A stretch of 41,538 nucleotides of DNA from IMG/VR virus record IMGVR_UViG_3300047171_000035, positions 1 to 41,538 of that record; one strand, given 5' to 3'. The notes beneath the pieces were generated by a model. That model was not told the origin of the DNA, ran no database searches, and saw only the letters and a list, made by a program, of their open reading frames with translations. Positions 240 to 35,594 of this stretch are shown here, piece by piece; within the stretch, counting starts at the first letter, position 1; each line of letters opens with the position of its first letter. The DNA comes from a virus. Both the position numbers and the translations under genes were made by a program.

Positions 240-3200
240 TTAGACCGGAACCGGCGTCTCGAAATCGGCGATCGTGTGTTCTTCTTCGCGGGCACGTTTG
301 GCGGCGCGGCGATGGTCGCGTTTGTCGACGGCGCCCATGATGTACGTATACATGACGGGGACGAGTGCGAGCGTTAAGATCAGCGAGCTTATGAGGCCGC
401 CGATGAGCACGGTGCCCATCGACGCGCGTTGCTCGGCACCTTCGGTGATGCCGAGCGAGAGCGGCAACATGCCGAAGATCATCGCGCACGTCGTCATCAA
501 AATCGGCCGGAAGCGCGTCGCCGCCGCAGCCTTCATCGCATCGTAAACGTTGAGGCCGTACTTGCGACGCTGCTGATTCGCGTAATCGACAAGCAAGATG
601 CCGTTCTTGGCAACGAGCCCGAAGAGCATCACGATCGCGATGAGCGAAAACAAGTTGAGCGTTTGATGCCGGATCGCGAGGCCGCCGAGCGCGCCGACGA
701 CCGCGACCGGCACCGAGAACATCACGACGAACGGCTCGACGAACGAGCCGTACAGCACGACCATGAGCATGTAGACGAGCAAGAATGAGGTGAGCAACGC
801 AAAGCCCATGCTCGAGAACGTTTGGTTATAGAGATCGGCGTCGCCGTCGGCGGCGACGTGGACGCCCGGCGGCAAGAAGCCCGGCGTGTCGAGCGCTTTC
901 TGCACGGGCGCGAGGATCGTGCCGAGCGAGACGCCGAGGTTGGGATCGACGTTCGCGGTCACGCGCACGACGCGATTGCGCGCCTGGCGAATGATCTTCG
1001 TCGGCGCCTTCGTCATCGTGAAATCGGCGACGCGCATGAGCGGCACGAGGGTCCCGTCGGACGCGCGCACTTGGAGCCGTTCGACCGTCCCGAGATCGTT
1101 GCGTTCATCGGCCGGTAGCTCGAGGCGCACGTCGGTGAGCCCCGTTTCGAGTCGCACCTTCGTCGAGACGACGCCGCCGATTGCGATGCGCGCGATCGTC
1201 GCCGCGTCGCCGGGCGAGACGCCGAGCAACGCCGCGCGCGCCGGATCGATGCGAATATCCAAACGCGGACCGTCTTGCGACGCGCTCGTATCGACGTCGA
1301 TAGCACCTTTTTGCTGTTTTAGCAATGCCGCAAGATTTTGCGATGCACCATCGAGTTCGGCATCGGGACCCGTAAGCGTGAAGACTACGGCCGCACCGCT
1401 TCCGCTACTGGAATCCGTCGCGATCTGATAGGCGGCGCCGGGAACGAGATAGCCGAGTTTGCGCGCGTCGGCAAGCACGCGATCCTGTTCGCGACGGCGC
1501 GTTTTCTCCAGGAGGACCGTGAACTGCGCGAGATGCCCGCCGAGATCGGCGCCGAAGCCGTTGGGCTTCGTACCGACGGTCGTAAGGATCGATTGCACGC
1601 CGTCGATTTTGAGCAGCGCGTTCTCTAAACGCGATACGCCCGCTGCGGTCGTCGCTAGCGGCTGACCGATCGAATACTGCAGCGAGCCTTGCAACACGCC
1701 GGTGTTTCCCGACGGCACGAACTCCGAGCCGATGAAGCCCAGCGGCACGAGGGTGATCGACGCGGCGACGAGCAACAGACACGCGATCGGCACGATCGGC
1801 CGATGCGAGAGAAACCACGGCAAGAGCCGCTCGGCGTAATAGCGGCCGACCGCTTCGAAGCCGTTCTGGAACCACGCAGCCCACCATGGTACTTCCGGAC
1901 TGCGCTTTTTCACGGACCAGCGCCCCGCGAGCAGCGGCGTCAGCGTGAACGAGACGAAGAGCGAGAACAGCGTGGCGACCACGATCACCATGCCGAACTC
2001 TTTCATGTACTTGCCGACGATGCCCGAGAGAAAAGCGATCGGCAAGAAGACGACCACGTCGACGAGCGTGATCGCGATCGCCGCGTTCCCGATCTCGGTC
2101 CGTCCGTTGAACGCGGCATCGAGTGGACGCTCGCCCATATCGCGATGGCGCGTGATGTTTTCGAGTACGACGATCGAATCGTCGACGAGGATGCCGATCG
2201 TGAGGCCGAGGCCCATAAGCGAGATGACATCGATCGTGAAGCCGAGCAGCTTCATCACGATGAACGTCGCGAGCAGCGACGACGGGATCGCGATCATCAC
2301 GACGACGGCGTTGCGCCACGCGTGCAGGAAGAGCAGCATCACGATCGCGGTGAGAAAGATGCCTTCGATCAAACTCTGCAACACGCCGTTGACGGAGCTC
2401 TGCGTGTAATCGGCGGATGCGTTGACTTCAGTGAATGTGACGTACGGAAACTCTTTGGCCAGCGCCGCGAGTTCCGTGCGCGCGGCGGCGGTCGACTTCA
2501 CCGTATCCGCGTCGTTCTGCCGCTCGATGTTGAGTAAGAGGGACGGCGCACCGTTGAAATGCGACGGCCGCCGTTGTTCGACGTGTCCGTCTTCGACCGT
2601 CGCGAGGTCGCCGATTTTCACGTTGCTCTGCGCACCGCCGGAGATCGGGATCGGGATCGCGAGGATGTCGGAGGCCTTCTGCACGTCCGCGTGGACGGAG
2701 ACCGTCGTCTCGAGCGTCGGCGCATCCATGCGGCCACCTGGCAAATTCGCATTATTGTGCGCGAGGATCGAATCGAGATCGATCAGCGTCGCGCGCGTCA
2801 TCGCGAGCCGCTGGCTATCGGGAAAGACGTGAATCTCGCGCGCGGTATCCCCCGCAACCTCGACGTCGAGTATGCCCGGGACGGCCTTGAGATCGGGCAC
2901 GATACGCTGGGAAACCAGATACGAAAGTTCCGACGGCGAGAGCTTCTTCGAGGTCAAGGCCTCTTCGATGATCGGGTCGCTCTCGGAGCCGTCTTTGAAC
3001 ACGACCGGCGGATCGAGATCGGTCGGCATGTAGATGCGCGCGGTATCGACGCGGCGTTGCACGTCGATCGTTTCGTAGTTGAGATCGGTATCGAGCCGGA
3101 AGCGCGCGATGACGGTCGCTTGGCCTTCTTGCACGGTCGCCGAAAGGCGATCCATGTTTTCCATCCCGTCGAGCTGATCTTCGATCGGCTTGACGACGAG

Positions 3201-3383
3201 CTTCTCCATCTCGGAGGGCGAGGCGCCCGGGTACGATGCGCTTACCCCGACGATCGGGAACGCGACGTTGGGGAAGAGGTTGACGCCGAGCTGTTTGTAC
3301 GAGAAAAGACCGTACAAGGCGAGCCCGATGAAGACCATCGCCGTGATGACGGGTCGCGAAATAGCAAATCGGGTCAACCACAT
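240..3383 (-). CDS. RND-family efflux transporter, inner-membrane pump subunit
   Basis: This 1047-residue protein has the length and layout of AcrB/MdtB-type hydrophobe-amphiphile efflux pumps. These use the proton gradient to export drugs or other small molecules together with a periplasmic adaptor and an outer-membrane channel. It starts with TM1 (FAISRPVITAMVFIGLALYG) and the usual LGVNLFPNV turn. TM4 carries GILVDDSIVVLEN with the paired proton-relay aspartates, and TM10 carries GLVAKNGILLVDYA with the conserved lysine. ATG 3383 has AGGAG 8 bp upstream. No adaptor or outer-membrane gene lies in the window. Upstream is the tRNA fragment and prophage, so the pump appears to be transcribed alone. 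Codon use is GC-rich, unlike the phage genes. Substrate cannot be told. Confidence 0.95.
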   Translation of the reverse strand: MWLTRFAISRPVITAMVFIGLALYGLFSYKQLGVNLFPNVAFPIVGVSASYPGASPSEMEKLVVKPIEDQLDGMENMDRLSATVQEGQATVIARFRLDTDLNYETIDVQRRVDTARIYMPTDLDPPVVFKDGSESDPIIEEALTSKKLSPSELSYLVSQRIVPDLKAVPGILDVEVAGDTAREIHVFPDSQRLAMTRATLIDLDSILAHNNANLPGGRMDAPTLETTVSVHADVQKASDILAIPIPISGGAQSNVKIGDLATVEDGHVEQRRPSHFNGAPSLLLNIERQNDADTVKSTAAARTELAALAKEFPYVTFTEVNASADYTQSSVNGVLQSLIEGIFLTAIVMLLFLHAWRNAVVVMIAIPSSLLATFIVMKLLGFTIDVISLMGLGLTIGILVDDSIVVLENITRHRDMGERPLDAAFNGRTEIGNAAIAITLVDVVVFLPIAFLSGIVGKYMKEFGMVIVVATLFSLFVSFTLTPLLAGRWSVKKRSPEVPWWAAWFQNGFEAVGRYYAERLLPWFLSHRPIVPIACLLLVAASITLVPLGFIGSEFVPSGNTGVLQGSLQYSIGQPLATTAAGVSRLENALLKIDGVQSILTTVGTKPNGFGADLGGHLAQFTVLLEKTRRREQDRVLADARKLGYLVPGAAYQIATDSSSGSGAAVVFTLTGPDAELDGASQNLAALLKQQKGAIDVDTSASQDGPRLDIRIDPARAALLGVSPGDAATIARIAIGGVVSTKVRLETGLTDVRLELPADERNDLGTVERLQVRASDGTLVPLMRVADFTMTKAPTKIIRQARNRVVRVTANVDPNLGVSLGTILAPVQKALDTPGFLPPGVHVAADGDADLYNQTFSSMGFALLTSFLLVYMLMVVLYGSFVEPFVVMFSVPVAVVGALGGLAIRHQTLNLFSLIAIVMLFGLVAKNGILLVDYANQQRRKYGLNVYDAMKAAAATRFRPILMTTCAMIFGMLPLSLGITEGAEQRASMGTVLIGGLISSLILTLALVPVMYTYIMGAVDKRDHRRAAKRAREEEHTIADFETPVPV

Positions 3384-3522: not shown

Positions 3523-3575
3523 TGGTGCGCGAGACTGGACTCGAACCAGCACGTCCTTGCGAACGTTAGCACCTC
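3523..3575 (-). tRNA. Partial tRNA-Leu (3' half), prophage attachment-site remnant
   Basis: Read on the minus strand, the segment begins inside an anticodon loop (TTGAGGT, anticodon GAG = Leu). It continues with the 3' anticodon stem GCTAA, a long type-II variable arm, the T-arm (CTGG TTCGAGT CCAG), the acceptor strand CTCGCGC and an encoded CCA at 3523-3525. The sequence before the loop (TTACA) does not pair with GCTAA, and no D-arm or 5' acceptor strand follows, so the 5' half is missing. Half-tRNA remnants of this kind mark the site where an integrase recombined a phage into a tRNA gene. The breakpoint near the anticodon loop matches common tRNA-type attachment sites. Confidence 0.85.
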
Positions 3576-4768: not shown

Positions 4769-5110
4769 TTAAATTGCAGCAGGATAGAACGGCGGAGATT
4801 TACCTAAATGAATATGAAGCAGCCGGGCAGCAGCCATGTAAGAAATCCCCGCTGCTAAACCCGCCTCGTCTGGTAAAGGCTCTAAATCGGCGTCTGTCAC
4901 CTTAAGCTCGTTCTCGGTGACATGAGCCCAAACCGGACCTAATTCGGCCAACACCTCGACCGAATGAGGTTGCCGAATTTCCGTCCTAAGAGCCGTCCAT
5001 CCGTTGTTAAGAACCATGAAATCGTAGTGATTTACATGGTCGGGAATCCCGAGCATCTTTTCGTGTATCTTCGCCGGGTCGGTTTCTTTAATGAAATGAT
5101 GGTAACGCAC
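4769..5110 (-). CDS. Hypothetical protein following the tail-tip gene (113 aa)
   Basis: The start is GTG 5110, 3 bp from the tail-tip stop codon, with GGAG 6 bp upstream. The GGAG lies inside the last codons of the tail gene, so translation is probably coupled. The sequence opens MRYHHFIKETDPAKIHEKM, has a central NNGWTALRTEIRQPHS segment and ends in an Ala-rich helix. There is no signal peptide or clear membrane segment. Its place directly after the tail-tip gene suggests a tail accessory or assembly protein, but I do not recognise it. Confidence 0.65.
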   Translation of the reverse strand: MRYHHFIKETDPAKIHEKMLGIPDHVNHYDFMVLNNGWTALRTEIRQPHSVEVLAELGPVWAHVTENELKVTDADLEPLPDEAGLAAGISYMAAARLLHIHLGKSPPFYPAAI

Positions 5111-5113
5111 ATC

Positions 5114-8100
5114 TTACTCCGTGACGATGTTGTGGCTAACGGCCTGACCGAGCATAAAACGATTTCGAGCGCATTTGATTTGAACGTACTGGCCCGGTAC
5201 TCGCTTGCCGATGCACTGAACCGCGAAGAACTTCTCCCCGTTCTCTCCAGCTATCAACGTACTTAAGCTTAGCTCCGTCGTCGGCACCCAGTCCAAGGAA
5301 CGTGCATTAGGGTCGCCTCCGGCTGCTAACCACAAATGAGTTTCGTCAACGCTTAGGACTTCATCGGCAATCTCAACATCAACGATATACGAATCACGGA
5401 TGCGTACCGCTTGAATGACATTCCACTCCCCGGCGTTGTAATCGCGGAGATGCATTCCGACTTCCAACTCGTCTGCACGAATGAAGCCGTGTTCTTGGGT
5501 TTCTACCAATTGATGAATGGCCGGGCATTGCGGCTTGTAACCGCCACCGCCGCCCGTGTTCGAGCCCGACGCCGGGGCAAGCGGAGTCGCTGCCGTTTCG
5601 TTGATGATTGCAGCAACTGAACCGTCTCGGTTCATTCCTTGGATGAATGCGTAAGACTGCGCTCCACTCGAAACGGAACCGTAGACGTAGTAAGACCCGG
5701 ATTGGTACGAAGTGTAGCCTTCACCCGCAATCGTCGAAATCCAAACGTTGAAATAATAGGTTGTTGAGCCGACTAAGCCCGTGAAGTTCAATGAACCCGC
5801 ACCAATGCTTACTGCCGAATTGTCGGTCAGGTAAAGACTGAATGCGCTCCACGATACCGAGGCCGTAGCAGCGTTGGACGAATTCGTTGAAGTCGTGACC
5901 GGGAATGAGCCGCCCGAGAAACCGTTCAAGCTCAATTGATTGTTCAAGAACGTTGAAGCATTCGCACGGGCAGTAGTCGAAATCACGCCTATCAACTGAC
6001 CACTCGAATTTAAACCAGTTTGCACTCCGGGGCTCATTGCGGTATGCGTCAGTTGCGTATTTCCCGACTGGAAAGAGCTAGTCGAGAGTCGTCGGTAATT
6101 CGAATCATCTTGAATCCCGGTCAAGGTCGCGCCAGTCGAATTGAAATGCCGATTGTTGATGATGCCGGACGTAAGGTAAGAGCCGTCACCGCCCGCTGCT
6201 GATGTAAGCGAGTTCTTCACTTGCGTTGACATTGCACCGTATTCGAATTGCCCGGCCGTATGATTAGCGCCGTTTTCTTTGTAGCCCGTCGCGACGTTTC
6301 CATATTCAAGTTGAATCTGCGAAGCAAGTAAAACGTTCGTGCTCGCCTCTGCCGACGAAGCAGTAACTTGCGCCAAAAGGTAGACTTGAGAACATCCGCT
6401 AGGCGGGGACAAAGGCGAACTAACAACACGCCCGTAGCTCGCACCAGAAGTTCCACCTGTTGAAGTGATTCGCCCAATTTCTGTGTTCGTCTGAGCGTTC
6501 AAGAGAATCAATGAAACAGTCGAATTTGCTTCTGCTTGCATCGTTGCGCTTAGCGTGTATGAAAGTGGATACGTGACGTTGATGTATCCCGCCGGATATT
6601 GGCTAAGATTGAAATTCGTTTGGCCCGCATTTCCGCCAGAACCGCCGGAGGGAACGCTGTAATAGAATCCTTGGTAACCGAAGTAGGACGAAGTAAAGAC
6701 ACCGCCTCCGGTAATCCAATACGAATTGCCGAACTTTACGTCAGAATCGGGAACGAGATTTACTTGTGAGCCAGTGCCATCTAAAGCTACGCTCGCGTTG
6801 TGCTGCCCGAGTGGAAGCGTATTCTTCGCTTGAACCCCGAGATAAACACTACCAGCATTTGAATCGTGGTCGATGTAATCTTGAATGCGATTGCCCGCCA
6901 CAAGCAACGCGCCGAGCATGTAGAAACTCCCGTTCGTGTTTGTATTATCGTAAATCAACACGCGAGCCGAAGTCGCGCCGTAAGGCATCGTAAACGTTCC
7001 GTAGACCATATACCAACCGCTTTGATTAGCAGTTTGAACCGCGCTATTGTAGCGAGTGACGCCGGAATAGTACGGCAGAACGTCGTTCGGGTTCGCGGTC
7101 GTGATTAGCGTAGAGTTGTATTGCGTCGAAAATGCCGCGTTACCAATCCACATTGTTGGCAGCATTCCCGAAGAGCCCGCGTAAAGCAAACATTGAAACG
7201 TGTACGCACTTCCGCCAGTAACGGGAACATCTTGATAATACCCCTGTGGAGTCGCAGCATTCTTTCCGTAAGAGATGCTCCCGAACGAGCCGTAATTTCC
7301 GTTCGAGGCTGGGTTTCCAGGATTAGCGCCGCCGTAAGGATTCGTCCATCCGTAAGCAGACGGTAACGCTGCCGCCGTACCACTGCAATTATTCCCGTTG
7401 ACGATTAGATTCTTCGCCGGGATGTTACCAGCGATGTACGTCGTGTTTTTATTGAGGTGCGACGTTTGGGAAAAATCAATCAAAGCACGGCGGTTCGAAT
7501 CCATGTTCGAAATCGGCATCCGTTGGTAAGTAGAGCCGTCGTTTAAGCCGTCTTGCGTAGCTCCGGTTATATGTCGATTGTAAATTAAGCCTGTGCCGAG
7601 GTAAGAGCCGTCGCTTCCGGGAGTCGAGACAATGGTCGATTGCACCGGAACGGGAGCGGAACTGTACGCAGTCGTTCCAGCGTTTGCGGTCGTCGTATCA
7701 GTTTGGACGGGAGTCGATGGCAAGAAGCCCGTGAAGTTCGAACCCGGCTGAACCATCGCGCAAGCCATGAAGATGGGCGAACCGCCAACGGTAATTCCGC
7801 TGTTCGAGAATTGAAAAACATACTGCCCTGTAGATGACGGCGTGAACACCGTAGAGGGATTGCCGGAGTAGCCTCCGCTCTGAATGCACGAAGCGACAGA
7901 ACTAGCCGCATTGCCGGGGTTCGTGTTCGAAATCGTCCCTGAAATTGGGCCAATGATTCTCGCACCGCCGCTACCTGATGCATTGATTAAATCCAAGTAA
8001 CACGACATTGTGTAAGTCGTGCCGCCCACCAATTGGAACGGCTGAGAATTTGCGTATCTGCTTGAACTGTTCGCGCCAGAGGTCCACGAGAACAAGCCAA

Positions 8101-16285: not shown

Positions 16286-17260
16286 TTATGGTGCGTAAGC
16301 AGTAGCGCCAGTATCAACGACGACAGCCTTCAGAGCATCAGCGGCTCCGGTCGCGCTTTCGTAAGCATTGAACTTGACGGCATACGTTACTACGTCGTTA
16401 CGCTTTGGCGAAAGCGGTGCAGAAGTCACGATGACATTCGGGCAAATAAAGCTTACGCTGTACGGAGTTGAACCGCTCGCGATTGCTGTATGAGTGAAAT
16501 TGATTTGAAAAGGAACTGCAGTAGCACCTAAAGCTAAGTTCGCGATTGCGTCAGATTCATACGTCGCACTAAAGGAACCCGTGACTTGTGCATTTTTTGG
16601 GTTGATGTTACGAACTAGACGACCTGAGCCCGAACCGTAGAACGGCTGCATGTTGTTTTTAAGCGAGATACTGAAACTATCCATGTTCGTAAGCGGGAGG
16701 CTGTTCAAAGACGCAGACGTTACTAGCTGATAGTCGAACGGATTTGCATTACCGAACGTAGGGCTCAACGATTGACTCGCGAGAATAACGTCGTTCTGTG
16801 CGATGACGCCTACTTTTAATTCGAGTAGACCTCCAGCTTTGGCGGAAATATCGACGGAATCAGCGACGCAACCTACCCACTGGTGAACGCTGCCGCCGCC
16901 GTAGTCTGCACTGAGCGTGAATGATGGACGCGGAGCGTACAAGTGCATAATATGCGTGTAAGCTCCAGTTCCCGATACGGAATCAGTACCTAAGCAGATA
17001 CCTAAAACTTGTCCAATGACGTTAGGCTCAGCTTCAATTGAGAACGAGCCCTTTACGTCGATTTGTCCGGGATTTGCAAGCGTATCCGAGACGGTCTTAC
17101 GCGAACCCATTCTTGGAATGAGTTTGTTGGTGTAAGCCATCGCGTCATCAGTCGCAGGTAAATAGAGTGTGGGAGCAACGGCAGTGCCGTAAACATTTTC
17201 GCGAGCTAAGCCTAGTGCGCTGGCCCATCCATACGCGGCTTGAAGTTGGGTCGTCGGCAT
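16286..17260 (-). CDS. Major tail tube protein (324 aa)
   Basis: The gene sits just upstream of the tail chaperone, the usual place for the tube protein. The protein is rich in beta strands and Ser/Thr/Asn. Near its start it has GLARENVYGTAVAPTLYLP, a pattern often seen in siphovirus tube proteins (an 'ExxYGT' opening). Segments such as VKGSFSIEAEPNVIGQVLG and QVTGSFSATYESDAI resemble the repeated tube-fold strands. The ending is Ala-rich and may form an exposed domain. ATG 17260 follows directly after the stop codon of the preceding gene (TTAAATG) with GAGGT upstream, so the two are probably coupled. Confidence 0.85.
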   Translation of the reverse strand: MPTTQLQAAYGWASALGLARENVYGTAVAPTLYLPATDDAMAYTNKLIPRMGSRKTVSDTLANPGQIDVKGSFSIEAEPNVIGQVLGICLGTDSVSGTGAYTHIMHLYAPRPSFTLSADYGGGSVHQWVGCVADSVDISAKAGGLLELKVGVIAQNDVILASQSLSPTFGNANPFDYQLVTSASLNSLPLTNMDSFSISLKNNMQPFYGSGSGRLVRNINPKNAQVTGSFSATYESDAIANLALGATAVPFQINFTHTAIASGSTPYSVSFICPNVIVTSAPLSPKRNDVVTYAVKFNAYESATGAADALKAVVVDTGATAYAP

Positions 17261-32169: not shown

Positions 32170-33207
32170 TTAAATTAAGGGCGTCTGTAGTCGCATCTTA
32201 GTAATGATGGGCGTTTGCAATCGAATCGACGTTTGGATAGCGGTCGGTATCGTCAGGCTCGTTTGAATCGGCGTTGCTACTACGATGGATTGATTTAAGG
32301 GCATTTGCGTCCTGACTGATTTCGAAATTGGTGCGGATAGTCTGACGGATTCTGAAATGCTCGTAAGTAAATTTACTGTTACTACTGTTTTGAGCATGAA
32401 CTTCGTGAGCTTATCACTGGTCGTGAGGTCAAGGTGTCTCGTTCGCATCAATCGCAGAACACGATTCAAAACGTCAACCGTCATTAGAGAATCTTCAGCT
32501 TGTCTTGTTACCAACTGCGCGCGGTTGACTGCATCTGAAAAGGTCGATGCGTCCGTGAGCATTCTACTAGCGATTAAATTCGTTAGTAGCGCATCTATGG
32601 TCGGCAGCGAATCCGAGGCCGAACGGCTAACGAACTGTTGACGATTCACGGAATCTGCTATCTGAAACGTTTCTGTTTCTGAGCGCATCAGTGTGATTTT
32701 ACGGCTTACCGAATCGACGACTGATAAAACCTCGGTCAATAATCGTGTAAAATACTTACCTGATTGAAGCGAGTCAGACGTAGTTAGGGAATCGACCTTA
32801 CTTCTGATAGCCGTTACGGTGCGTTGTAGGGAATCGACCGTTACCAGGGCCTCGTTTTGTGCCCTGTAGAGGCTTACGGCGCGGTTTACAATGTCGGACG
32901 TAGTAAATGTATCAGCCTGATTTCGAAAAGCCACTACAAGCCTTGCAATTGAGTCCGACGTAATGAACGAATCCGATTGTGAGCGATTGAGCAACGCTTG
33001 ACGTTGTAGAAAGTCCGCTACTTGCAGTGTGTCGTTCTGCGCGCGGTAAGCGACGGCGAGACGATTCAATGCGTCTGAGGTCGCTACGGTATCGGTTGCG
33101 GCTCTAGGAGCTACTAATACCCTAGCGAGCGTATCCGATGTAGCGAGCGTTACCGTCTGATTTGCTAGCAGCCTTGAACTGCCCTGATTCAGTAAAAGAA
33201 TCAGCAT
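32170..33207 (-). CDS. Repeat protein of the fibre module: 20-residue tandem repeats (345 aa)
   Basis: After a short start (MLILLLNQGSSRLLANQ), residues 20-276 consist of about 12.8 units of exactly 20 residues, of the type TFTTSDSLxRxVxxxRxQxD. There is Asp at unit position 6, Arg at 10 and 16, and Asp or Glu at 20. Residues 277-345 switch to shorter units of about 10 residues (VATPIQTSLT, IRLQTPIITK). The regular length suggests a fibrous helical or beta-solenoid shaft. The ATG overlaps the tailspike stop codon (TAATG). It is probably a virion fibre or adhesin; no enzymatic motif. Similar Ser/Asp repeats occur in some archaeal and bacterial surface proteins. Confidence 0.75.
   Translation of the reverse strand: MLILLLNQGSSRLLANQTVTLATSDTLARVLVAPRAATDTVATSDALNRLAVAYRAQNDTLQVADFLQRQALLNRSQSDSFITSDSIARLVVAFRNQADTFTTSDIVNRAVSLYRAQNEALVTVDSLQRTVTAIRSKVDSLTTSDSLQSGKYFTRLLTEVLSVVDSVSRKITLMRSETETFQIADSVNRQQFVSRSASDSLPTIDALLTNLIASRMLTDASTFSDAVNRAQLVTRQAEDSLMTVDVLNRVLRLMRTRHLDLTTSDKLTKFMLKTVVTVNLLTSISESVRLSAPISKSVRTQMPLNQSIVVATPIQTSLTIPTAIQTSIRLQTPIITKMRLQTPLI
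32380..33150 (-). repeat. 60-bp coding tandem repeat, about 12.8 units
   Basis: The DNA encoding residues 20-276 of the repeat protein has a 60-bp period. Units have diverged at the DNA level (different codons and residues), yet none has gained or lost a codon. That indicates old duplication with selection on unit length. Confidence 0.75.
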
Positions 33208-35594
33208 TACCGAATTACTTCAATCTCGGCTAGGTAGACGGTCGGAAGTGAGGTCGTCGCGGACGTGAGCATGTTAAATTCAAGGACGTTTTGAACCGTG
33301 GTGTTTACGGCGGTGTTTGCGGGAGCCGTTCCGTTGGCCGGAGAGAACACGGTAGCGGTAGCGGTCAATCCGGTAGCAGCAGAATTCTGCTGAATGCCGA
33401 TTGCTTCGATTCCGCCGGATGCACCGATTGCTTTGACGGTCGCAATTATTTCGAGCGTGAATCCGATTGCCGTTCCGACGACCGACGTATTAGCGAAGCT
33501 TGCAGCTATTGCACCCGTTAAACTCGCAGTACCGATTCTAAGGCGGAACGTTGCGGTTCCGGCTGCGGTTGTCGTCGTATCTTGACCGATGACTCGAATT
33601 CGGAACGTTGTGCCGATTTGTAGCGCGTAGGCGGGGATGGTGTAGCCGACGACTTGGGCTTCTGTCGTCGTCGCAGCTTGGCTCGCGGTTGTGAGTGCGA
33701 CTACTCCACCTTGAACCATCGCGCCGATGTTGTCTTTAATTATCTTGGTGCCGACTGCCGTCGAACCGTCGATGATTCCGGCTCCGGTGTTTCCGCTTAC
33801 GTCGTTCTGTTGAATCGTAAGCGAAGTGTATGTCCCGGCTGCAATCTGAACACCGACGCCATTAGCGCCGAATGCTGCGGTTGGGCCTAAAGTGTTTCCG
33901 GTAATCCTTACTTGAGAATTACTGTTTACGGAGGGTGCGATGTAAACGGCACCTGAAGTGTTGCCTGCAAACTTGCAGCCGCCATTAACGGACCATCTCG
34001 TTCCGCCGCCGGATGCGTAGATACCCCAGCCGGAATTACCGAAGAAATGGCAATTAATCCAATCAATTCCGTCAACGTTTGCTTGTTCAATTGATGCACC
34101 GTGATTCGTATGGGACGAGAACCAAGAATTAACGAAAAGACAGCGGTAAATTGAACCTGAGCCTCTGAATCGTACTCCGTAAGTTCCGGTGTCAAAAAAC
34201 GTGTTGCTGACGTAAACGGTTGGAATTGTTACGCCTGCGCCGGGATTCAAGTCTAAGGTAATCCCACATTGTGACATCCCCGAATTGTCGATTAGCAGCG
34301 AACCGAGGTTCGTCGAACATGCAATTCCGGCTGTTGCCTGACACGGATTTTCGGCGAATACGTGATTGAAGTAGAGATTCTGATTTGTGCCCGAAATCTG
34401 AACCAAGGTGCCCGCGAAATTACGTGAGTTGATATCATCTACGTGGTCGTCTTGACCCGCGAAGTTGATGATGTTAAAATTCGAATTGAATTCGCAGTGA
34501 CGAACTAAAGCGTAGTTTCCGCCGGAATGATTGATTGCGTAGCCGCTAGTACGTCCTAAGACGTAGCCCCCAGTTGCAGCAGCGGTTCCCGTGCCGCCCG
34601 TGCATCCCGTAAAGCTCGTAGCAGTTTTTCCGGTGTATGAAATAAGCTGCCATGCCGTAGCGGTCGAATTCGTAGCAACATAAATTGAGCCGGAGTTCGC
34701 GAAGTTCGCGGTACTCGCGACGTTTAGAACACCGCCGGATATCGGAAACGCAACGCTACTCGAACCACTAGCAATCGTCGTGTTGAGACCTTGAAATTGT
34801 AGCTCTTCGAATTGGTCGTACCAACCCGTTACGGAGAACATATCTCCGGTCGGAACTGTGTAGTAAATAATTGTATTAGTGCGACTCTGACCAATGACTC
34901 GAACTGAAGTCTGCGTAATCGCCGTGAGCGAACTACCGATTAGGTAGAAGCCGACCGGGAAATAAAGCACTCCGCCGAAAGTCGATGCGTTCAGTTGAGC
35001 AATGAGCGTGTTAATGGCATTCGTGGAATCGGTAGCACCGGATGGGTCCGCACCACCATCAGCGACGGCATCAAGCCACAAACCGCCAAGCTTCTTAAAC
35101 TGCGCGGCTGACATCGCGCCCGCTGCTGCTGTAGTCGCGTTCGTGATGCTCAGCGCCGGATTGGTGCCGCCGCTGGAAACGATGGGCGCAGTTCCCGTTA
35201 CTGATGCTACTGGCTGTGTAGCGAGCGCATTAAGCGGAATGGTGCCCGCAGCAATGCCCGCGCCCGATTGAACCGGAGGCGAAGCAAAAGACTTTACGCC
35301 TTGTAAAGTTTGATTCGTCGTTAAATCAACGAAAGGCTGAGTCGCTGAGCCTGTACCACCTGAGGCAATCGGTAACACCGGAAGTGATGCAATCGCTCCG
35401 CCTGTGGTATCCGCGAAGATGGCGATTCCCGAGGCTGCGATGGTGCCCGTGGATGCCACGCCTGCTAATGGGGCGACGACGTTACTTGAATTGAGCGACG
35501 ACCATCGTCCGTTAGTGTTTAGGAATAATACTTGTTGCGAACCCTGGGGCGTGATGAAGCCTGAAGCGGGCGTAGCGTCATTTAGGAACGGCAT
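33207..35594 (-). CDS. Tailspike with pectate-lyase-type beta-helix (795 aa)
   Basis: The N-terminal 170 residues are phage-fibre-like, with LTTNQTLQGVKSFASPPVQS (the 'QTLxGxKTF' fibre motif) and an AAQFKKLGGL linker. Residues 175-235 (DAVADGGADPSGATDSTNAI, then GGVLYFPVGFYLIGSSL) are the start of a Pectate_lyase_3-type right-handed beta-helix. Repeating short strands follow to about residue 640 (FVNSWFSSHTNHGASIEQ, NCHFFGNSGWGIYASGG). The last 150 residues form a separate strand-rich C-terminal domain, perhaps for trimerisation. Such spikes bind and often cleave surface polysaccharide. Catalytic residues cannot be assigned. It sits upstream of the terminase genes, unusual for a late gene order. 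Confidence 0.87.
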   Translation of the reverse strand: MPFLNDATPASGFITPQGSQQVLFLNTNGRWSSLNSSNVVAPLAGVASTGTIAASGIAIFADTTGGAIASLPVLPIASGGTGSATQPFVDLTTNQTLQGVKSFASPPVQSGAGIAAGTIPLNALATQPVASVTGTAPIVSSGGTNPALSITNATTAAAGAMSAAQFKKLGGLWLDAVADGGADPSGATDSTNAINTLIAQLNASTFGGVLYFPVGFYLIGSSLTAITQTSVRVIGQSRTNTIIYYTVPTGDMFSVTGWYDQFEELQFQGLNTTIASGSSSVAFPISGGVLNVASTANFANSGSIYVATNSTATAWQLISYTGKTATSFTGCTGGTGTAAATGGYVLGRTSGYAINHSGGNYALVRHCEFNSNFNIINFAGQDDHVDDINSRNFAGTLVQISGTNQNLYFNHVFAENPCQATAGIACSTNLGSLLIDNSGMSQCGITLDLNPGAGVTIPTVYVSNTFFDTGTYGVRFRGSGSIYRCLFVNSWFSSHTNHGASIEQANVDGIDWINCHFFGNSGWGIYASGGGTRWSVNGGCKFAGNTSGAVYIAPSVNSNSQVRITGNTLGPTAAFGANGVGVQIAAGTYTSLTIQQNDVSGNTGAGIIDGSTAVGTKIIKDNIGAMVQGGVVALTTASQAATTTEAQVVGYTIPAYALQIGTTFRIRVIGQDTTTTAAGTATFRLRIGTASLTGAIAASFANTSVVGTAIGFTLEIIATVKAIGASGGIEAIGIQQNSAATGLTATATVFSPANGTAPANTAVNTTVQNVLEFNMLTSATTSLPTVYLAEIEVIR

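Follow-up and report, generated by a model that had tools for sequence, protein, structure and literature searches.

Gene Content of the Window

The stretch of DNA analysed here (the window) is an IMG/VR virus record of 41,538 nt (41.5 kb), in which the tail genes all lie on the minus strand, in the order tail tube, tape measure and a protein of 2019 residues, P0001 (Table 1). P0001 was named a putative tail-tip protein from its position after the tape measure and its size, without sequence homology. Outside its C-terminal domain, no relatives of P0001 were detected in Pfam, PHROGs, the PDB, the 50,697 phage records searched or IMG/VR, and residues 1–400 modelled alone with AlphaFold gave a pLDDT of 34.6. 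Directly after this gene begins a small ORF of 113 aa (4769–5110, minus strand), to which no family is assigned.

The 3' end of a tRNA gene (3523–3560, minus strand; GGTTCGAGTCC ... GCGCACCA) was found between a host gene for an AcrB-type efflux protein (240–3383) and the phage genes, although ARAGORN did not find a whole tRNA at this fragment. It is likely the left attachment site, which would make the window an integrated prophage. A search of IMG/VR with the window terminase revealed no related phage, and, as the domain queries described below gave no relatives either, the window could not be placed near any known phage. In addition, a pectate-lyase-like domain (PF12708, 9.1e-7) is present in a protein of 795 aa encoded upstream of the terminase and away from the tail genes (33207–35594, minus strand), possibly a depolymerase or spike.

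Table 1. Tail genes of the window and elements of the C-terminal domain of P0001.
Feature	Position (nt)	Strand	Basis
Putative tail-tip/hub protein P0001, 2019 aa	5114–11173, stop codon included	−	ORF, directly downstream of the tape-measure gene
Tape-measure protein P0002	11232–15410	−	phrog_1272 tail length tape measure, E 4.9e-11; directly upstream of P0001
Tail tube protein	16286–17260	−	PF18906 Phage_tube_2, E 1.6e-24
Hint domain, Cys1883 to Asn2015, 133 residues	5129–5527	−	Family HMM, hhalign, AlphaFold, Foldseek
GGGGG linker, residues 1874–1878, then YKPQ and Cys1883	5540–5554	−	Sequence
Cys1883, block A, predicted nucleophile for N-to-S acyl shift	5525–5527	−	Sequence; Cys1 of relatives
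His1946, block B (DETH)	5336–5338	−	Aligned to block-B His kept in 74/76 relatives
His2014-Asn2015, block G, predicted Asn cyclization site	5129–5134 (Asn2015, 5129–5131)	−	His-Asn in 76/76 non-redundant Hint domains
C-terminal tail IVTE, without Cys/Ser/Thr at +1 and without Lys	5117–5128	−	Sequence

A Hint Domain at the C-Terminus of P0001

The last 146 residues of P0001 consist of GGGGGYKPQ, the segment from Cys1883 to Asn2015, which ends in SHN (2013–2015), and IVTE. The first-pass annotation of this DNA had pointed to a block A cysteine, the His of a DETH motif and a terminal SHN followed by IVTE, and all the residues that it named are present in the translated ORF. The absence of an endonuclease and of a +1 nucleophile, also claimed there, was borne out, as 133 residues leave no room for an insert and SHN is followed by Ile, after which the protein soon ends, only four residues remaining past Asn2015. 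The window copy is an outlier, being around 20% identical to its relatives. It keeps Cys1, the block-B His and SHN, but the position three before this His is occupied by Asp, instead of the Thr or Ser found in 74/76 relatives, and the block-F His is missing, as it is from 12/76 relatives. This Thr or Ser is customary in Hint domains but does not strictly define them.

The domain was not recognised as Hint by the named libraries (Pfam, PHROG, PDB), and no relatives were found with it or with the whole P0001 as direct query in Pfam, PHROG, PDB, the phage records or IMG/VR. As a lead only, a hand-written consensus of C-terminal phage Hint domains was used as bait; all the statistics given here come from natural sequences and not from this consensus. 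The bait returned 50 loci, to which a later profile scan added more, a first, over-diverse alignment being unsuitable for scanning. With a family HMM built from environmental phage Hint domains, with the window left out, the window domain scored 20.9 bits end to end, from the Cys to His-Asn, compared to 9.9 bits for the best of 10,000 shuffles (5000 full ones and 5000 keeping Cys1 and the end SHNIVTE). In a six-frame translation of the window, the Hint-bearing ORF alone passed the inclusion threshold of this HMM. Aligned by hhalign to an 11-sequence profile, the domain scored 29.9, against maxima of 22.1 for 150 shuffles and 13.6 for 30 other pieces of P0001.

The fold was then considered. An AlphaFold model of the window domain, produced with an alignment of 60 relatives, showed a Hint fold with a pLDDT of 88.3 and a pTM of 0.83; as the input alignment consists of Hint relatives it could bias the fold, and the independent support comes from the sequence statistics above. 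Foldseek returned 60 PDB matches at E ≤ 0.001, and among the 50 matches listed all were inteins, BIL or Hog domains, the nearest structures being Tetrahymena BUBL1 BIL2 (TM 0.76, the best match), the gp41-1 intein (0.78) and a Clostridium BIL domain (0.77). The top matches to BIL and mini-intein structures agree with the earlier expectation of a Hint fold. Searched against the PDB, the family profile (in which the window is 1 of 19 rows) matched 7cfv (4.7e-12), Tetrahymena BIL2 (2.1e-11) and the Clostridium BIL domain (2.0e-9). The Clostridium BIL structure is among the top matches, but mini-inteins score similarly, so that these scores do not single out the A-type BIL subfamily.

Because the family HMM, hhalign and the structure model converge by three routes, the Hint assignment is considered secure on the grounds of sequence profiles and modelling. 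That the domain merely resembles a Hint domain by chance would fit the lack of Pfam, PHROG, PDB or close sequence matches, but the shuffle controls, the hhalign controls and the fold model speak against this, and we find it hardly credible.

Several known Hint classes were considered and rejected. A class 1 intein does not fit, with Ile at +1 and four residues only after Asn2015. A class 3 intein was considered for the HLW motif, with a Trp two residues after the block-B His, and discarded as Cys1, absent from this class, is present and positions F:4 and G:5 are Gln and Ser instead of Cys and Thr (the class has its Trp at B:12). A polymorphic toxin of the PT-HINT type was discarded too, given that no toxin domain is present and the protein ends at IVTE, and so was a Hedgehog autoprocessing domain, since there is no sterol-recognition region and the protein ends four residues after His-Asn.

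Relatives on Phage and Prophage Tail Proteins

In order to describe the relatives, we considered non-redundant sequences, at most 85% identical. A terminal class includes 28 phage or prophage proteins whose ORFs stop 2–16 residues past His-Asn, with a common plan consisting of a linker, a Hint domain beginning with Cys1, His-Asn and these 2–16 residues, a layout shared by the window protein. At least five Gly are present among the 20 residues preceding Cys1 in 23/27 terminal-class relatives versus 7/34 of the others. The remaining proteins include an internal class (n = 35), in which the Hint domain is internal and mostly followed by a Lys and a proline-rich or low-complexity segment.

The terminal class carries, as N-terminal parts, several types of tail protein that are unrelated to each other. 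One of them, in a Pyxidicoccus prophage (L009/L053), corresponds to lambda tail assembly protein I (phrog_32, 4.6e-54); the gpI-Hint gene belongs to a complete M-L-K-I-J module (L009, 6520–13048), flanked by K (JAB + NlpC/P60) and J, and a second terminal-Hint protein, of 704 aa, follows J. Other partners are a 1080-aa hub encoded one gene after the tape measure in myxobacterial genomes (L136), phrog_376 tail proteins (L028, L037, L039), a phrog_5616 tail fibre (L046) and a tail protein after a gp84-type hub (L138). No clear family was found for the N-terminal part of L025, L083, L085, L103 and other terminal members. The comparison with tail proteins elsewhere, proposed in the first-pass annotation, thus revealed an architecture of glycine linker, Hint domain and short tail that recurs on phage tail proteins.

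Among genomes of the myxobacterial phylum, 52/195 showed some Hint match, the strongest being terminal-class prophage proteins and the weaker ones mostly toxin-like. When the 50,697 phage records were searched with the bait and three relatives, the bait and two of these relatives recovered the phage type from a single metagenomic scaffold without annotation, and the remaining matches in these records were inteins or less similar Hint proteins.

The internal-class domains lie within large virus proteins (L003–L008, L010, L015–L024, L030–L036 and others), where His-Asn-Lys leads into proline-rich linkers; L070 and L091 carry two internal Hint copies each. In L043–L045, only a few residues precede the Hint domain in the ORF (MA-CSILTSD...), leaving almost no N-terminal extein, and the domain is followed by a conserved C-terminal protein of around 350 aa.

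This distribution bears on the nature of the domain. An ordinary mini-intein, joining IVTE to the tail protein by splicing, would account for the intein-type motifs at both ends of the domain, but there is no Cys, Ser or Thr at +1, the C-extein would have four residues, and the domain lies at the extreme protein end across unrelated tail proteins instead of at a conserved active site; splicing of this kind is thus very improbable. The Hint fold, the lack of both a +1 nucleophile and an endonuclease, and the recurrent terminal architecture fit BIL-like autoprocessing better than a splicing intein, as had been suggested from the sequence at first reading.

Conservation of the Catalytic Residues

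Among the 76 non-redundant domains, His-Asn is conserved in 76/76, the block-B His in 74/76 and the Thr or Ser three before it also in 74/76, while in the terminal class Cys1 is missing only from L121, a truncated copy. Within a clade of 13 relatives, the dN/dS ratio was 0.10–0.22 for the closest pairs, with a median of 0.33, and the catalytic residues were invariant. By its substitution rates, this clade is under purifying selection, the pattern of an active domain.

The window copy may be a degenerate remnant that has kept the fold, lost its activity and remains part of the mature tail tip, capping it structurally. The Asp in place of the block-B Thr or Ser and the loss of both the block-F His and the lysine of the family (see below) point in this direction; Cys1, the block-B His and the SHN end, however, are intact and exactly placed, and the relatives that likewise lack the block-F His include a whole myxobacterial group, which retains all other Hint features. 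Weighing both sides, we find a remnant unlikely.

A Conserved Lysine after the Hint Domain of Relatives

While a Cys, Ser or Thr at +1 was found in 1/28 terminal-class proteins, a Lys is present at +1 or +2 in 26/28 of them and within +3 in all 28. The same holds for 9/9 further members of the L028 clade and for 34/35 internal-class proteins, with a Lys within +1 to +3. By comparison, toxin-type and other Hints from the same genome search have a Lys at +1 or +2 in 1/13 cases (Fisher p 1.4e-7, an optimistic value since the sequences are related to each other). The patterns of the consensus bait and of the profile scan contained no Lys, although one L028 scan pattern did include it. The rows of the Myxococcota model end at Asn, except for the window row, itself without Lys, so that Lys was not selected for in the Myxococcota examples.

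In splicing by BIL2, an isopeptide bond is formed with a lysine, so that a ubiquitin-like domain becomes conjugated without ATP (PMC8616854). There is a striking parallel in the phage proteins, in which a Ub-like or tail protein is followed by glycines, the Hint domain and Lys. As a conserved Lys follows the Asn and BIL2 is known for Lys isopeptide bonds, lysine-mediated ligation at the level of the family is, by this analogy and from the sequences, a serious and strong hypothesis. The equivalent of the nucleophilic C-flank Lys of BUBL BIL2 is absent from the IVTE tail of the window.

Applied to the window, such a ligation would consist of an attack on the linker thioester by a lysine side chain, here provided by a partner tail protein, joining both covalently without ATP. 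This is favoured by the conserved Lys within +1 to +3 in relatives versus 1/13 toxin-type or other Hints, by the nearest solved fold being that of BIL2, a former of Lys isopeptide bonds (PMC8616854), and by the N-terminal partner in the Pyxidicoccus prophage, the Ub-like gpI. On the other side, the window tail has no Lys, ligation in cis would attach a few residues only in the terminal class, and the Lys may serve Asn cyclization or folding rather than ligation. We regard ligation as an improbable fate of the window protein.

A broader proposal can be put forward tentatively for the family. Uncultivated phages and prophages of a large family might use their C-terminal Hint domains to join or crosslink tail-tip proteins through ATP-independent, ubiquitin-like isopeptide bonds from glycine to lysine, the window being a lysine-less offshoot that would be cleaved or joined to a lysine of a partner. 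As a whole, this proposal is possible but rather doubtful.

Proposed Processing of the Window Protein

The window domain is probably a C-terminal BIL-like Hint autoprocessing domain, by which the tail protein would be cleaved at the N-terminal side of the domain and the Hint part lost. Its terminal architecture, the conserved Cys1, block-B His and His-Asn, and the tail-protein partners of the relatives count for autoprocessing, as read from sequences and the model. The analysis establishes the class of fold, the shared layout and the residues conserved among relatives; the following chemical steps, their order and a role in assembly are inferred. The domain would fold and, with the assistance of His1946, Cys1883 would attack the peptide bond after Gln1882, so that the glycine linker ends in a thioester. 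This thioester would react with water or with another nucleophile, freeing a tail protein with the end ...GGGGGYKPQ, and cyclization of Asn2015 would shed IVTE. The Hint part would be active in tail assembly and be discarded afterwards. Most relatives have a lysine at +1 to +3 to which the thioester could be transferred, as in Tetrahymena BIL2.

Cleaved products predominate when BIL domains lack a +1 nucleophile (PMC7664689). Since the window copy has no Lys, simple cleavage is likelier than ligation in its case. Lacking in addition the block-B Thr or Ser and the block-F His, and being so distant from its relatives, it may be slow or inactive.

Comparison with Known Hint Systems

The A-type BIL domains, such as that of Clostridium thermocellum (2lwy), share with the window domain the Hint fold, Cys1, the block-B His, His-Asn and the lack of a +1 nucleophile, and they are not located at a conserved active site of the host protein either (PMC7765530, PMC7664689). 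They differ in that the phage domains lie at the extreme C-terminus of tail proteins, followed by a tail of 2–16 residues, and in the flanking Lys of the relatives. In BUBL1 BIL2 (6y75, 6tmm), the best Foldseek match, the Hint domain also follows a ubiquitin-like or glycine-ended segment, and its attacking nucleophile is a lysine, the residue that flanks the domains of the phage relatives. BIL2, however, is eukaryotic and lies between two ubiquitin-like domains, whereas most phage domains are terminal and the window copy has no Lys.

PT-HINT domains (PF07591) have the same fold and His-Asn end, and their model was weakly matched by 13/19 family members, but toxin-type Hints are followed by around 100 or more releasable residues, mostly without Lys, and the window domain by essentially none. 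The Hog domain does not require the His-Asn step, a feature inapplicable to the window domain. It is likewise a terminal Hint domain with a matching fold (1at0, TM 0.77), and its N-terminal cleavage proceeds through a Cys1 thioester. In contrast to the window, Hog has an extra C-terminal region that binds cholesterol (PMC7765530).

Finally, lambda gpI is the counterpart of the N-terminal part of the Pyxidicoccus terminal-Hint protein, including its location beside a K with JAB and NlpC/P60 domains, although gpI has been described without a Hint domain and the window protein is not gpI. Lambda gpI is Ub-like, its role is unclear and it is absent from the mature tail, and its processing by JAB was proposed earlier (PMC1779556).

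Implications for Tail Assembly

In the open-access literature searched, we found no description of tail-tip proteins that end in a Hint domain with a conserved lysine beside it. BIL domains, Hog domains and toxin Hints have been described before, and autocleaved C-terminal domains occur on some tailspikes and fibres. If active, the terminal Hint domains would serve assembly and then remove themselves, and the conserved lysine points to protein ligation without ATP; their small size also makes them candidate tools for ligating proteins. Through the link to lambda gpI, they offer a way into an old question of tail-tip assembly.
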